From: Sulfurimonas sp. | Lineage (GTDB): Bacteria; Campylobacterota; Campylobacteria; Campylobacterales; Sulfurimonadaceae | NCBI GenBank assembly: GCA_027064045.1 | Contig: JAMOQK010000045.1 | Location: 1 to 39,931, forward strand | Length of the DNA stretch: 39,931 bases | Direction of reading: 5' to 3' | Shown here: positions 11,873-30,353 of the stretch, one piece after another | Layout: every line of letters begins with the position of its first letter | Numbering within the stretch: the first letter of the stretch is position 1 | Position numbers and translations under genes: made by a program | The notes under the pieces: model-generated | What the model was told of the DNA's origin: nothing | The model's database searches: none | Seen by the model: the letters and a program-made list of their open reading frames with translations, nothing else

Positions 11873-13681
11873 ATGTGTGCAATCTTTGGTATAGTCGGCT
11901 CTTACGATGAAAAAAAGGCTAAACTTGCTTTGGCAAAACTCTCTCACAGGGGTCCTGATTTTTGTGGTATTGAGCAGGGGAAAAATCTCTTTTTTGCCCA
12001 CCAAAGACTTAGTATTCAAGATATTAACACTCGTTCACACCAACCACTAAAACATCAAAACATTTTACTCTCATTTAATGGTGAGATTTATAATTTCAAA
12101 GAGTTAAAACAAAGTTTGGCAGGTGGGTTTGAGTTTAAAACTATGAGTGATAGCGAGGTTATAATCGCAGCTTATATCAGATGGGGTGTTGAGTTTGTAA
12201 AACATCTCAGAGGGATGTTTGCTATCGCTTTATGGGATGATGGTGAGCTTTATCTTTTTCGTGACAGACTTGGTAAAAAACCACTTTTTTATACCATGCA
12301 GGAAAACTCATTTATATTTGCTTCAGAGATAAAAGCACTCACTCCATTTTTAAAACAACATAAACTAAATGATGATGCACTTCTTAGTTATCTATCTTTT
12401 TTAGCACCAACACCACCTCATACTTTTTTTAAAGGGATAAACAAGTTGGCATGTGGAGAGTATCTAAGTTTAAGATGTGGGCAGATGGAAATAAAACAAT
12501 ATTTTGATTTACTAAACACCACACCAAACATCATAACTTCAAGAGATGAGGCTGTTTATACACTTGAAAAATCGCTTGAAGAAGCTATAAAAATAAGACT
12601 TTCTTCTGATGTAGAGATGGCTTCACTTTTATCTGGTGGGATTGACAGTGCAACGCTTAACTATTTTGCTAAAAACAATGGTGTTAAACTCCAAACTTAT
12701 ACTTTGGGATATGATGGTTTTAGCAAATATGATGAGCGAGAAAATGCAAAAAAGAGTGCTAAGTTTTTAGGTCTTGATTTTAAACACATACAAATAAACC
12801 AAAATGATTTTATGATGGCATGTGGGGATGTTTTAAATACACTTGATGAGCCATTAAATGACCCTGCAGCCATACCTCTTTACCTACTTTTTAAAGAGAT
12901 AAAAAAAGATGGTTACAAAGTGGTTTTTAGTGGAGAAGGAAGTGATGAGCTGTTTTTGGGTTACAGACAATATTTTGAATACTTAGATATAGAAAATGCC
13001 TCAAATCTAGCCCATAAAAATTGGCTAAAAAAATATTTTCGCTCAAACTTCTCGATGAACCGTGAATGGGAATGGTACAAAAGAATTTTTGATGATACTC
13101 TTCTTTTTCGCACCTCTGGGGAGAAGTTTAGTGACCTGCAAAAAAACAACCTTATGAGAAGAAATATAAAAGATAATGAAAGTTTAAAATACCTAAAACC
13201 ATACCGTGAAAGATTTGAGAGTTCACGGCATGTGGACAACTCTATCTGGTACAGCTACATAGACCTAAATCTTTTTCAAGCAGAACATTTTTTAACTAAA
13301 CTTGACAGAGTAAGCATGGCTCACTCGATAGAGTCAAGAACACCCTTTTTAGACCATAAACTCGCTCAAACCATCTTTAGTATATCTCCAAAACTAAGGT
13401 ATGAAGATGGGGTTACAAAAGCATTGCTAAAAGAGGTTATGAGAGGTAAACTTGATGAAAGTATATTAAAAAGAAAGAAAAAAGGATTTTCAAACCCATA
13501 TATGGAGTATCTTATAAATTCTAATGAGATAAACATCATAAAAGAGGTAAATACCCAAACTGGGATGTTTAAAACCAAAGAGTTAGATGAGTATATCCGA
13601 CGAGCTAAAAGTGGGAATTTTAAACAACATGTTTGGGGACTTTATGTGCTTAGTGTATGGTTTAAGAGATGGCTACTTTAA
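11873..13681 (+). CDS. asnB: Asparagine synthetase (glutamine-hydrolysing)
   Basis: A 602-residue class II amidotransferase. The nucleophile Cys2 is in MCAIFGIVGS, with LSHRGPDF and FNGEIYNF in the glutaminase domain. The synthetase domain has the PP-loop SLLSGGIDSATL (about residue 255) and SGEGSDELFLGYRQY (about residue 350). It makes Asn from Asp, Gln and ATP. It starts directly after the MNT stop codon with no spacer. Its 3' end overlaps the convergent methyltransferase by 20 bp. AsnB paralogues also occur in surface-polysaccharide clusters, but nothing else here indicates that. It has two exact and one near 10-mer. Confidence 0.95.
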   Translation: MCAIFGIVGSYDEKKAKLALAKLSHRGPDFCGIEQGKNLFFAHQRLSIQDINTRSHQPLKHQNILLSFNGEIYNFKELKQSLAGGFEFKTMSDSEVIIAAYIRWGVEFVKHLRGMFAIALWDDGELYLFRDRLGKKPLFYTMQENSFIFASEIKALTPFLKQHKLNDDALLSYLSFLAPTPPHTFFKGINKLACGEYLSLRCGQMEIKQYFDLLNTTPNIITSRDEAVYTLEKSLEEAIKIRLSSDVEMASLLSGGIDSATLNYFAKNNGVKLQTYTLGYDGFSKYDERENAKKSAKFLGLDFKHIQINQNDFMMACGDVLNTLDEPLNDPAAIPLYLLFKEIKKDGYKVVFSGEGSDELFLGYRQYFEYLDIENASNLAHKNWLKKYFRSNFSMNREWEWYKRIFDDTLLFRTSGEKFSDLQKNNLMRRNIKDNESLKYLKPYRERFESSRHVDNSIWYSYIDLNLFQAEHFLTKLDRVSMAHSIESRTPFLDHKLAQTIFSISPKLRYEDGVTKALLKEVMRGKLDESILKRKKKGFSNPYMEYLINSNEINIIKEVNTQTGMFKTKELDEYIRRAKSGNFKQHVWGLYVLSVWFKRWLL

Positions 13682-14534
13682 TTTTCCTGGCACTCAAAAA
13701 AAGATAATCTTTACCAGTCACAACAACCCTGTAACCTTTTTGCTGAAGATATTTTTTACAAAAGTGTATATCTTTTAAAACCAAACTCATCTCAGGAAAT
13801 AGATAGTTAGGTGCTTTTGCACCATATATCATCTCCCCATCAAACCATCTACAATTTGGAAATCCAAGTATAATCGCACCATTTTTTTGAAGATAATTTT
13901 GATATATATCCATAAAAGTTGCATTAAAACTTAAACTTGAACTTTGAAGTGTACCTATACAGATAAGCAAATCAAATCTACCCAAATCAAGCTCATTTAG
14001 GTTATTAATATCATGCGAAATAAACTGAGTATTGGCATGTGGAAAATTTTTTTTAGCATACTCTATGACGGAAGTTGAGTAGTCAATCCCAATCAACTCT
14101 TTTGCTTCAAATTCATCCACACTCAGAAAATTTTTTAAAACTTCAAACTCATCACCTTTATTTACTCCAAGATTTAAAACTCTTTTTTTATCTTTTAGAT
14201 TTACAAATTTTAATGCTTGTTGATAATGGTAAAGAAAACTAAATTGTGCTGTTTTATCAATGTTGAAAAAATCACTATCAACACCGTACTTCTCATCAGA
14301 ATCTTCACATTTATGAAAAGATGAATTTGTATCTAGTTTATAAAATCGCAATATGATTTTTTCACCATCCACTTTTGGTGTCAGCATCTTCATATAAAAA
14401 AGTTGTGCCAAATCTATAAAAGCTTTATAACCTATCTTATCAAGCACAACATTTGAGAGTTTTAGCTCTATAACTTCACCAGCACTAGGTGATAAACTCT
14501 CAAAATATCTAAGTATATCTTTTGAAGTTTTTAT
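13662..14534 (-). CDS. SAM-dependent methyltransferase, apparent AUA start
   Basis: A class I methyltransferase: VLNLGVNKGDEFEVL (motif I), ELIGIDYSTSVIEYAKKNFPHANTQFISHDINNL, then FDLLICIGTLQ. The first standard start is GTG at 14447, giving 261 residues. The frame stays open upstream for 29 protein-like codons (KTSKDILRYFESLSPSAGEVI...) back to an ATA at 14534, which overlaps the TAA of the upstream GAF gene as ATAA. No ATG, GTG or TTG lies in between. Either AUA is the start, giving 290 residues, or one A has been gained in the A5 run 14534-14538, since losing one A would join a GTG at 14541 in frame. Substrate unknown. One exact 10-mer (14033, read as PHA). Confidence 0.75.
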   Translation of the reverse strand: MKTSKDILRYFESLSPSAGEVIELKLSNVVLDKIGYKAFIDLAQLFYMKMLTPKVDGEKIILRFYKLDTNSSFHKCEDSDEKYGVDSDFFNIDKTAQFSFLYHYQQALKFVNLKDKKRVLNLGVNKGDEFEVLKNFLSVDEFEAKELIGIDYSTSVIEYAKKNFPHANTQFISHDINNLNELDLGRFDLLICIGTLQSSSLSFNATFMDIYQNYLQKNGAIILGFPNCRWFDGEMIYGAKAPNYLFPEMSLVLKDIHFCKKYLQQKGYRVVVTGKDYLFLSARKIKVAIS

Positions 14535-28404: not shown

Positions 28405-29571
28405 TTAACTAAAAGCACCAATATTTTCCAGCCATTCTTTCATTTTTCTCTCAAAACCGATACTTTTTAACTCAATAAATTTTAGAGGTTCTAAAAGATA
28501 GTTTTGTTTAACGAAACCTCCGAAATCATGAGGGTATAGATAACCTTTATTTTGTTGTGAAATATTGTTTGGAATATCAAGTAAAGTACCATTTTTAATG
28601 GCTTTTATAGCTTTATTAATTGCCAAGTATGATGAATTTGATTTTGGGGAAGCACACAGATAAACTACTGCTTGAGCTAAGATAATTCTAGCTTCAGGGT
28701 AGCCGATTTTACTTACACTTGTCATAGCTGAAGTACAAAGAGTAAGAGCTTGTGGATTTGCATTGCCCACATCTTCACTAGCTAATATCACAAGTCGTCT
28801 TGCTATAAACTCAGCACTCTCGCCACCCTCTATAAGTCTAGCTAAGTAATAAATACTTGCATCTATGTCTGAGCCTCTTATAGATTTTATCATCGCACTT
28901 GTTAAATCATAGTGAATACCAGCTTCACTACTTCCACCACTTATGGCATGTGGACGGAGCGATTTAAGAGTTTTTAATTTTATGTGAGTATCTATATTGG
29001 AACTAAATTCAAGTAGTTTCAACATAGCTCTTGCATCACCACCACTACTTTTTATAAGATATTCTTTTGCATCTTCATCACAAATCACTTTGGCATGTGA
29101 GATAGCTTTATCTAAAAGTTTTGACAGTGCTTCATTTGAGATACTTTTTACTTCAAACAGCATAGAACGGGAACGGATAGCTGAAGTTAATGAAAAAAAA
29201 GGATTTTCAGTTGAAGCACCTATGATTAAAACTGTATTGTTTTCCATTACGGGGAGCAAAACCTCTTGTTGGTTTTTTGCTAACCTATGCACCTCATCTA
29301 TAAAGATTAAAGGCTTTTGAAGAGTATTTTTATATTGATCAAAAATTTTTCTGAGTTGCTCCACTTTTAGTGAAGTGGCATTAAACTCATAAAATGGCAG
29401 TTGCATAGTTTTAGCAATTATCCTAGCTAAAGAAGTTTTACCACAACCAGCCCCACCCCAGATAAAACTATGTCCTAAAACACCTTTTTCACATAGCACT
29501 CTAAGTGGTGCTGTTTTGGAAGTTAAATGTTCTTGCCCAACAATATCATCAAAAGTTTTTGGTACTATTAT
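28405..29571 (-). CDS. rarA: Replication-associated recombination protein A (RarA/MgsA AAA+ ATPase), apparent AUA start
   Basis: An AAA+ clamp-loader-like ATPase acting at stalled forks. Walker A is WGGAGCGKTSLAR, Walker B LIFIDEVHRL, sensor 1 GASTENPFFSLTSAIRSRS, and the C-terminal MgsA region includes GGESAEFIARRLVILASEDVGNANP. The first standard start (GTG, 29499) would cut off the conserved start. In-frame codons upstream read VPKTFDDIVGQEHLTSKTAPLR, the expected RarA N-terminus, back to ATA codons at 29571 and 29568, with no ATG, GTG or TTG. The ATA at 29571 overlaps the upstream TAA as ATAA. Length from there is 388 residues. One exact and one near 10-mer. Confidence 0.85.
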   Translation of the reverse strand: MIVPKTFDDIVGQEHLTSKTAPLRVLCEKGVLGHSFIWGGAGCGKTSLARIIAKTMQLPFYEFNATSLKVEQLRKIFDQYKNTLQKPLIFIDEVHRLAKNQQEVLLPVMENNTVLIIGASTENPFFSLTSAIRSRSMLFEVKSISNEALSKLLDKAISHAKVICDEDAKEYLIKSSGGDARAMLKLLEFSSNIDTHIKLKTLKSLRPHAISGGSSEAGIHYDLTSAMIKSIRGSDIDASIYYLARLIEGGESAEFIARRLVILASEDVGNANPQALTLCTSAMTSVSKIGYPEARIILAQAVVYLCASPKSNSSYLAINKAIKAIKNGTLLDIPNNISQQNKGYLYPHDFGGFVKQNYLLEPLKFIELKSIGFERKMKEWLENIGAFS

Positions 29572-30353
29572 TTTTTACCCCTCTCTTTATCTTTCTTATC
29601 TTCTGTTTTTAAAAATTTATGTAAAGCCGAGTACTCACTTCTTGTTAAAAATCTACTTTTTCCAGTTGGAAGGTTGTTTAACTCAACCTCTGCAAAACTA
29701 ATCCTTTTTAAGTCTGCCACCTCACAGCCAAAATGAGCGAAAAATCTTCTAATCTCACGATTTTTCCCTTCAGAAATAGCAATTTTCAAGATGGAATAAT
29801 TTGGAGTATTTTTCTGGATTTTATATCCTAAAAAAGGTGCAAATGTCATACTGGTAATCTTTGAATATTCATGTCCACCAGCAGTTGCATCACTAAGCTC
29901 AAGCCCATTTAACATCGCGTCTTGCATCTCTTGTGTAATTTCACCTTTGATTTTTACTTTATAAATCCTCTCCAACCCTGAGTTCATCAAAGCACTGGCA
30001 ACTTTGGAAGCATCTGTTAAAAGCAACACTCCCTCAGTAGCATAATCAAGTCTTCCAACTGGGATATAGTGTTTATACTTTTTCTCCAACCCATCATAAA
30101 TAGTTTTTCTACCTCTTGGGTCATTTTTAGTAACAAGCTCCCCTTTTGGTTTATTGTAAACTATAACTGTATATTTATCTCTAGGAGCTACTTGTTTACC
30201 ACTAACATAAACTATGTCAATGCCCTCTTCAACCTGAGTTGCAGGATTATCCTCTATCTCACCATTTACTCTAACATAACCATCTTGAATAACCTTATCA
30301 GCCTCCCTGCGTGAGTAACTTGAATGGTGTGCTATATATTTGTTTAGTCTCAT
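29568..30353 (-). CDS. 23S/16S rRNA pseudouridine synthase (RluB/RsuA family)
   Basis: 261 residues. An N-terminal S4 RNA-binding domain (MRLNKYIAHHSSYSRREADKVIQDGYVRVNG) and the RsuA-type catalytic core with Asp in VGRLDYATEGVLLLT (about residue 100), then NREIRRFFAHFGCEVADLKRISF. It isomerises uridine to pseudouridine in rRNA. The C-terminus is Lys/Arg-rich. Start overlaps the HEPN stop (ATGA); stop overlaps the inferred rarA start (ATAA). Confidence 0.9.
   Translation of the reverse strand: MRLNKYIAHHSSYSRREADKVIQDGYVRVNGEIEDNPATQVEEGIDIVYVSGKQVAPRDKYTVIVYNKPKGELVTKNDPRGRKTIYDGLEKKYKHYIPVGRLDYATEGVLLLTDASKVASALMNSGLERIYKVKIKGEITQEMQDAMLNGLELSDATAGGHEYSKITSMTFAPFLGYKIQKNTPNYSILKIAISEGKNREIRRFFAHFGCEVADLKRISFAEVELNNLPTGKSRFLTRSEYSALHKFLKTEDKKDKERGKK

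Follow-up and report, generated by a model that had tools for sequence, protein, structure and literature searches.

The rarA gene of a metagenome-assembled Sulfurimonas genome appears to be translated from an AUA codon. With a probability that we put at about 0.65, initiation takes place at a low level at AUA 29571 (or 29568), directly at the end of the preceding rluB-type gene, and is probably coupled to the translation of that gene.

The rarA reading frame and its boundaries

The window, i.e., the whole stretch of 39,931 nucleotides analyzed here, is one contig of a Sulfurimonas MAG of 1.53 Mb, which is 75% complete with 4.4% contamination. The sequence of the rarA frame on the minus strand is TAA (29577-29575) AAA ATA (29571-29569) ATA (29568-29566) GTA CCA AAA ACT TTT GAT GAT, and the first ATG, GTG or TTG after the in-frame TAA is the GTG at 29499, confirming what the first-pass annotation had reported. 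The frame is free of internal stops and intact to the C-terminus. Its product carries the Pfam domains AAA (66.9 bits), AAA_assoc_2 (51.3 bits) and MgsA_C (177 bits) in that order and above the cut-off, as is required of a RarA/MgsA AAA+ ATPase. The rluB-type gene ends on the same strand with GGT AAA AAA TAA and rarA lies in the -1 frame relative to it, so that the stop and the putative start share either four nucleotides (ATAA, 29571-29568) or one (TAATA, 29570-29566). The relevant features are as follows.

28405..29571, minus strand: rarA (MgsA) coding sequence if begun at ATA 29571; three domains in order, conserved from codon 4, stop-free
29569..29571, minus strand: proposed start ATA, sharing ATAA with the rluB stop; first codon choice, as ATG, GTG and TTG are absent from the in-frame TAA up to GTG 29499; 6 nt from the Shine–Dalgarno-like sequence; aligned with the ATG of locus L140
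29566..29568, minus strand: alternative start ATA in the same frame, sharing one nucleotide with the rluB stop (TAATA); aligned with the GTG of L121 and L028; 9 nt after the Shine–Dalgarno-like sequence
29578..29585, minus strand: Shine–Dalgarno-like GAGAGGGG inside the rluB tail; -8.6 kcal/mol with the generic anti-Shine–Dalgarno sequence
29575..29577, minus strand: in-frame TAA, the upstream bound of the rarA frame as read from the sequence
29568..30353, minus strand: rluB/rsuA-type pseudouridine synthase gene with S4 and PseudoU_synth_2 domains, stop TAA 29570-29568; adjoins rarA
29499..29501, minus strand: GTG 29499-29497 (after codon AGA 29502-29500), first canonical start, rejected as the conserved block before Walker A would be deleted
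13662..14534, minus strand: methyltransferase gene with rarA-like anatomy; ATA 14534-14532 shares ATAA (14534-14531) with the stop TAA of the GAF-domain gene before it

The ATAA had been described as a one-base variant of ATGA overlaps used by the neighboring genes. Such overlaps are indeed present at 30353-30350 and 30715-30712, and the third one at 31002-30999 is a GTGA. Among 414 gene ends of the window genome, however, 104 (25%) read A|TAA, and the overlap found at rarA is therefore weak evidence on its own.

The frame relation could also mean that RarA is made only as a fusion with RluB, either because ribosomes slip into the -1 frame on AAA AAA UAA or because the assembled A-run is one A too short. 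Six A's precede the rluB stop and one added A joins the two frames. However, rluB and rarA are fused in no relative, P-site slippage at AAA-UAA should be weak, and both the Shine–Dalgarno sequence and the short-form relatives described below indicate separate initiation, which makes the fusion very improbable. We also considered whether an indel could rescue a canonical start, but one A fewer opens no frame with such a start and one A more does nothing except fuse the two genes.

Conservation of the RarA N-terminus

For comparison we used 140 de-duplicated rarA loci including the window, and 133 relatives could be aligned gap-free for the codon analysis. The start codons are TTG (77), ATG (37) and GTG (25), and only the window has none of these. 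None of the 139 other loci is without a canonical start and no other rarA has ATA at the start codon of the window, which is a point against the AUA reading. In the relatives TTG is the commonest rarA start (55% of the 139 loci), and among the genes of the window genome ATG dominates. This suggests that in this lineage rarA is as a rule initiated weakly.

The region upstream of GTG 29499 had been claimed to encode the conserved RarA N-terminus. This is borne out by codons 4-24 (29562-29500), which have a median pN/pS of 0.31 between the window and the 133 relatives and of 0.33 among the relatives themselves, and which by this measure are coding and under normal purifying selection. Residues F7, Q13, L23 and R24 are invariant, P4, D8, G12, H15 and L16 vary very little, and all nine are retained in the window. 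The N-terminal block RP..FD..VGQ.HL before Walker A is thus present, except that the Arg preceding the Pro is replaced by Val. Codons 1-3 encode IIV in the window as opposed to LLR in nearly all relatives, the Val taking the place of an Arg shared by 131 of the 133 relatives. Initiation at GTG 29499 has in its favor that this is the first canonical codon in the frame. It would, however, give an N-terminally shortened RarA without the P..FDD.VGQ.HL block that is under normal purifying selection, and we regard it as the least probable of the alternatives. Hence no canonical start is able to give the conserved N-terminus.

The N-terminus of the window's RarA is nevertheless not the usual one. In the relatives translation commonly starts at a codon 15-18 nt before the position of ATA 29571, and the additional codons encode M-(A)-D-F-T-H ahead of LLRP (MADFTHLLRP), so that the normal N-terminus is 5-6 residues longer. 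The window has lost this stretch, as have five relatives. Relative to ATA 29571 these short forms start at -3 (L024, GTG), +3 (L028, GTG), +3 (L121, GTG in a GTGA overlap), 0 (L140, ATG) and -6 (L041, ATG). In L024, L028, L121 and L140 the start codon and the end of rluB overlap, and this start is located at, or at most one codon from, the ATA codons of the window. All five short N-termini lie beside or overlap rluB and start within two codons of a common position. Since the short-form relatives sit in several places of the tree, the shortening occurred more than once. The adjacency of rluB and rarA itself is found at 92 of the 140 loci, the window included.

Two irregular genes were seen among the relatives. 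At G084:C32:73545-74694 rarA is split into two overlapping frames, by a frameshift or an assembly error. A TAA flagged as internal in the rarA of G052 is probably C-terminal and was disregarded, as the alignment reaches residue 387 and most relatives end at about 384.

The frameshifted rarA of G084 bears on the possibility that the start codon was lost naturally and recently and that rarA is barely expressed or null and heading to decay. The changed residues 1-3 with the near-invariant Arg and the long rluB-rarA branch of the window would also fit, and as rarA is not known to be essential such an allele could persist. On the other hand, the pN/pS of the remaining gene is not above that of the relatives and the frame is intact to its end. 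We consider start loss improbable.

Initiation signals

Upstream of the two ATA codons the sequence GAGAGGGG (29585-29578) is predicted to form a duplex of -8.6 kcal/mol with a generic anti-Shine–Dalgarno sequence, chosen because the MAG contains no 16S rRNA. It ends 6 nt before ATA 29571 and 9 nt before ATA 29568 and qualifies, by the generic sequence, as a strong Shine–Dalgarno sequence. One as strong is found at rarA in only 10 of the 139 relatives and at 1 of 40 other genes of the window. RNA folding of the start region gave no notable structure (z -0.10).

The first-pass annotation had named ATA 29571 and 29568 as the only plausible starts, and this is still the best-supported reading. 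They are served by the sole ribosome binding site upstream of the FDD.VGQ block, and their position matches the starts of the short-form relatives. Judged from the sequence, AUA 29571 in the AUAA overlap is most likely the start rather than AUA 29568 in UAAUA. A strong Shine–Dalgarno sequence would, however, be expected with an ATG start too.

An autoregulatory AUA in infC was considered as well and ruled out, because infC of the window genome begins with TTG.

Sequencing error or genuine start

It could be argued that the true codon is an ATG at 29571 (ATGA) or 29568 (TAATG) and that the MAG consensus contains a wrong base. The assembly is a MAG of limited completeness, a single substitution would yield a common overlap, and the strong Shine–Dalgarno sequence suits an ordinary start equally well. 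In addition, an ATG at this codon in relatives had been set out in advance as a finding that would speak for an error, and one distant relative (G086, locus L140) does have ATG aligned with 29571; its rarA is only ~78% identical, and its ATG gives no proof of a sequencing error in the window.

We therefore compared 564 kb of the window genome (window included) with 800 kb of the complete relative G134. In 165 homologous genes with 54,473 aligned codons there was no genuine nonsense lesion, the flagged internal stops being gene ends, stops before the start or spurious antisense frames. Taking ~5% of substitutions as nonsense, the absence of such lesions leads to an estimated substitution error rate of at most ~3e-4 per base and to fewer than ~0.15 expected error-derived start losses. 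Nevertheless, 2 of 154 starts checked belong to real genes without a canonical start; both are ATA and both are in the window, namely rarA and the methyltransferase gene 13662-14534, and this one window had already been singled out beforehand. In the reverse comparison none of 155 starts of G134 was without a canonical start. As there is no nonsense codon in 54,473 codons and yet two genes without a start, a consensus error is disfavored. Moreover, AUH starts exist in complete genomes of the genus (L325, L332). A consensus error thus seems unlikely, though of the alternatives it deserves the most weight. A search of viral contigs by exact match gave no DNA of the same species.

Putative non-canonical starts in the methyltransferase gene and in queH

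In the methyltransferase gene the first canonical start is GTG 14447. In most close relatives the gene begins with an ATG that lies upstream by about six codons. The codon of G058 that aligns with the ATA is ATC, though this gene could instead start at a TTG 24 nt downstream. The N-terminal conservation is weaker than at rarA and the Shine–Dalgarno sequence is weak, and this gene is therefore only a moderate case of an ATA start.

The queH gene of Sulfurimonadaceae is a strong case of an AUH start and as a by-product more valuable than the single unconserved AUA of rarA. In the window genome queH (L220 4281-5363, G000:C48) starts ATC TTA GTC CAT ATC TGT TGC, and no canonical codon occurs in the frame from the upstream stop to the conserved CC motif. 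Within the genus 30 queH loci, the own one included, have ATT or ATC (17) or ATG (13) at the same codon throughout, and a remote upstream canonical codon occurs in 3 of the 17 ATT/ATC loci. The complete single-contig genomes G032 (ATC) and G055 (ATT) offer no alternative start. AUH starts were noted at L325 and L332, which are from complete genomes, and at L365-L380, of which L370 (G101) has ATT. No AUA was found among the queH loci without a canonical alternative. In a class-wide pattern search AUH queH genes without a canonical alternative were confined to genera of the family to which the window belongs, and outside this family a canonical start was present upstream. Three other genera of the family have AUH starts, and on the QueH tree the ATG and AUH states need at least five changes.

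Simple counts linked a strong Shine–Dalgarno sequence in queH to an AUH start (Mann–Whitney p 0.006, Fisher p 0.013). We do not claim such a link, as it is lost once relatedness is allowed for (2 independent pairs).

Genome G023 contains a second queH fragment (L352 1-181, G023:C154) with an ATT start, which is 93% identical to the QueH of the window genome, and its own queH copy is 72% identical. The contig carrying L352 may be a contaminant derived from an organism more closely related to the window's species.

Our literature search found no paper tying QueH to an unusual start codon. The gene offers a recurrent, conserved and directly testable non-canonical AUU/AUC start in Campylobacterota, and gene finders limited to ATG, GTG and TTG would miss or truncate it in many Sulfurimonadaceae.

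A model for rarA initiation

The absence of nonsense lesions and the recurrence of AUH starts in the methyltransferase gene and queH lead us to favor a genuine AUA start of rarA over an error. By loss of the start codon and about five residues (MADFTH) rarA would have come to abut the end of rluB. The purine-rich Shine–Dalgarno sequence in the rluB tail would recruit the 30S subunit and initiator tRNA (fMet-tRNA) to the AUA, and ribosomes which have just terminated on rluB would probably also supply AUA 29571/29568; translational coupling of rarA to rluB is plausible from this arrangement. Discrimination by IF3 would presumably hold the output low. A low level of initiation fits the genus, because 55% of the rarA genes use TTG. 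More generally, but tentatively, the Sulfurimonadaceae may tolerate AUU, AUC and AUA starts, conserved in queH and lineage-specific in rarA and the methyltransferase gene, with AUAA being used by terminating ribosomes.

If this model is true, termination-reinitiation overlaps extend beyond NTG codons, and if AUA works in a stop/start overlap coupled genes could be tuned through the last base of their start codon. Gene finders restricted to the three canonical codons would trim 24 residues from the RarA of the window.

Comparison with known systems

AUA starts as such are already known and rarA would add a single unconserved example. In S. aureus infC, ccpN and citZ have AUA starts with extended Shine–Dalgarno sequences; these starts were mapped by Ribo-RET, gave ~10-30% of AUG in reporters, and in infC and ccpN the AUA is conserved between species (PMC13009471). 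They share with rarA the AUA and a strong nearby Shine–Dalgarno sequence, and a reduced yield is expected in both. In contrast to these mapped and reporter-measured starts, the putative AUA start of rarA is unconserved and is placed at a stop/start overlap.

The GUC start of Streptomyces sigR, which is repressed by IF3 (PMC5472188), resembles rarA in being non-canonical, in its extensive ribosome binding site and in being misannotated by gene finders. Unlike rarA, sigR is the first gene of a coupled pair, and its control by IF3 was tested. The infC gene of E. coli, as cited in the same paper (PMC5472188), has an AUU start and is under autocontrol by IF3. According to this citation it has like rarA an AUH start limited by IF3, which for rarA is our assumption, but rarA is outside the translation machinery and no autocontrol is implied.

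In the overlaps of -4 and -1 nt that have been catalogued, the start codon is NTG (PMC10666635). As in ATGA and TAATG, 4 nt or 1 nt are shared at rarA, and these are the registers favored for coupling, with ATA instead of NTG. Excess IF3 reduces re-initiation in the absence of a Shine–Dalgarno sequence (PMC2268962). A further comparison comes from the same lineage and genome: queH of the Sulfurimonadaceae has an AUH start (AUU/AUC), as proposed for rarA, and mostly an AAGGA-type Shine–Dalgarno sequence, and unlike in rarA its non-canonical start is conserved across many species.
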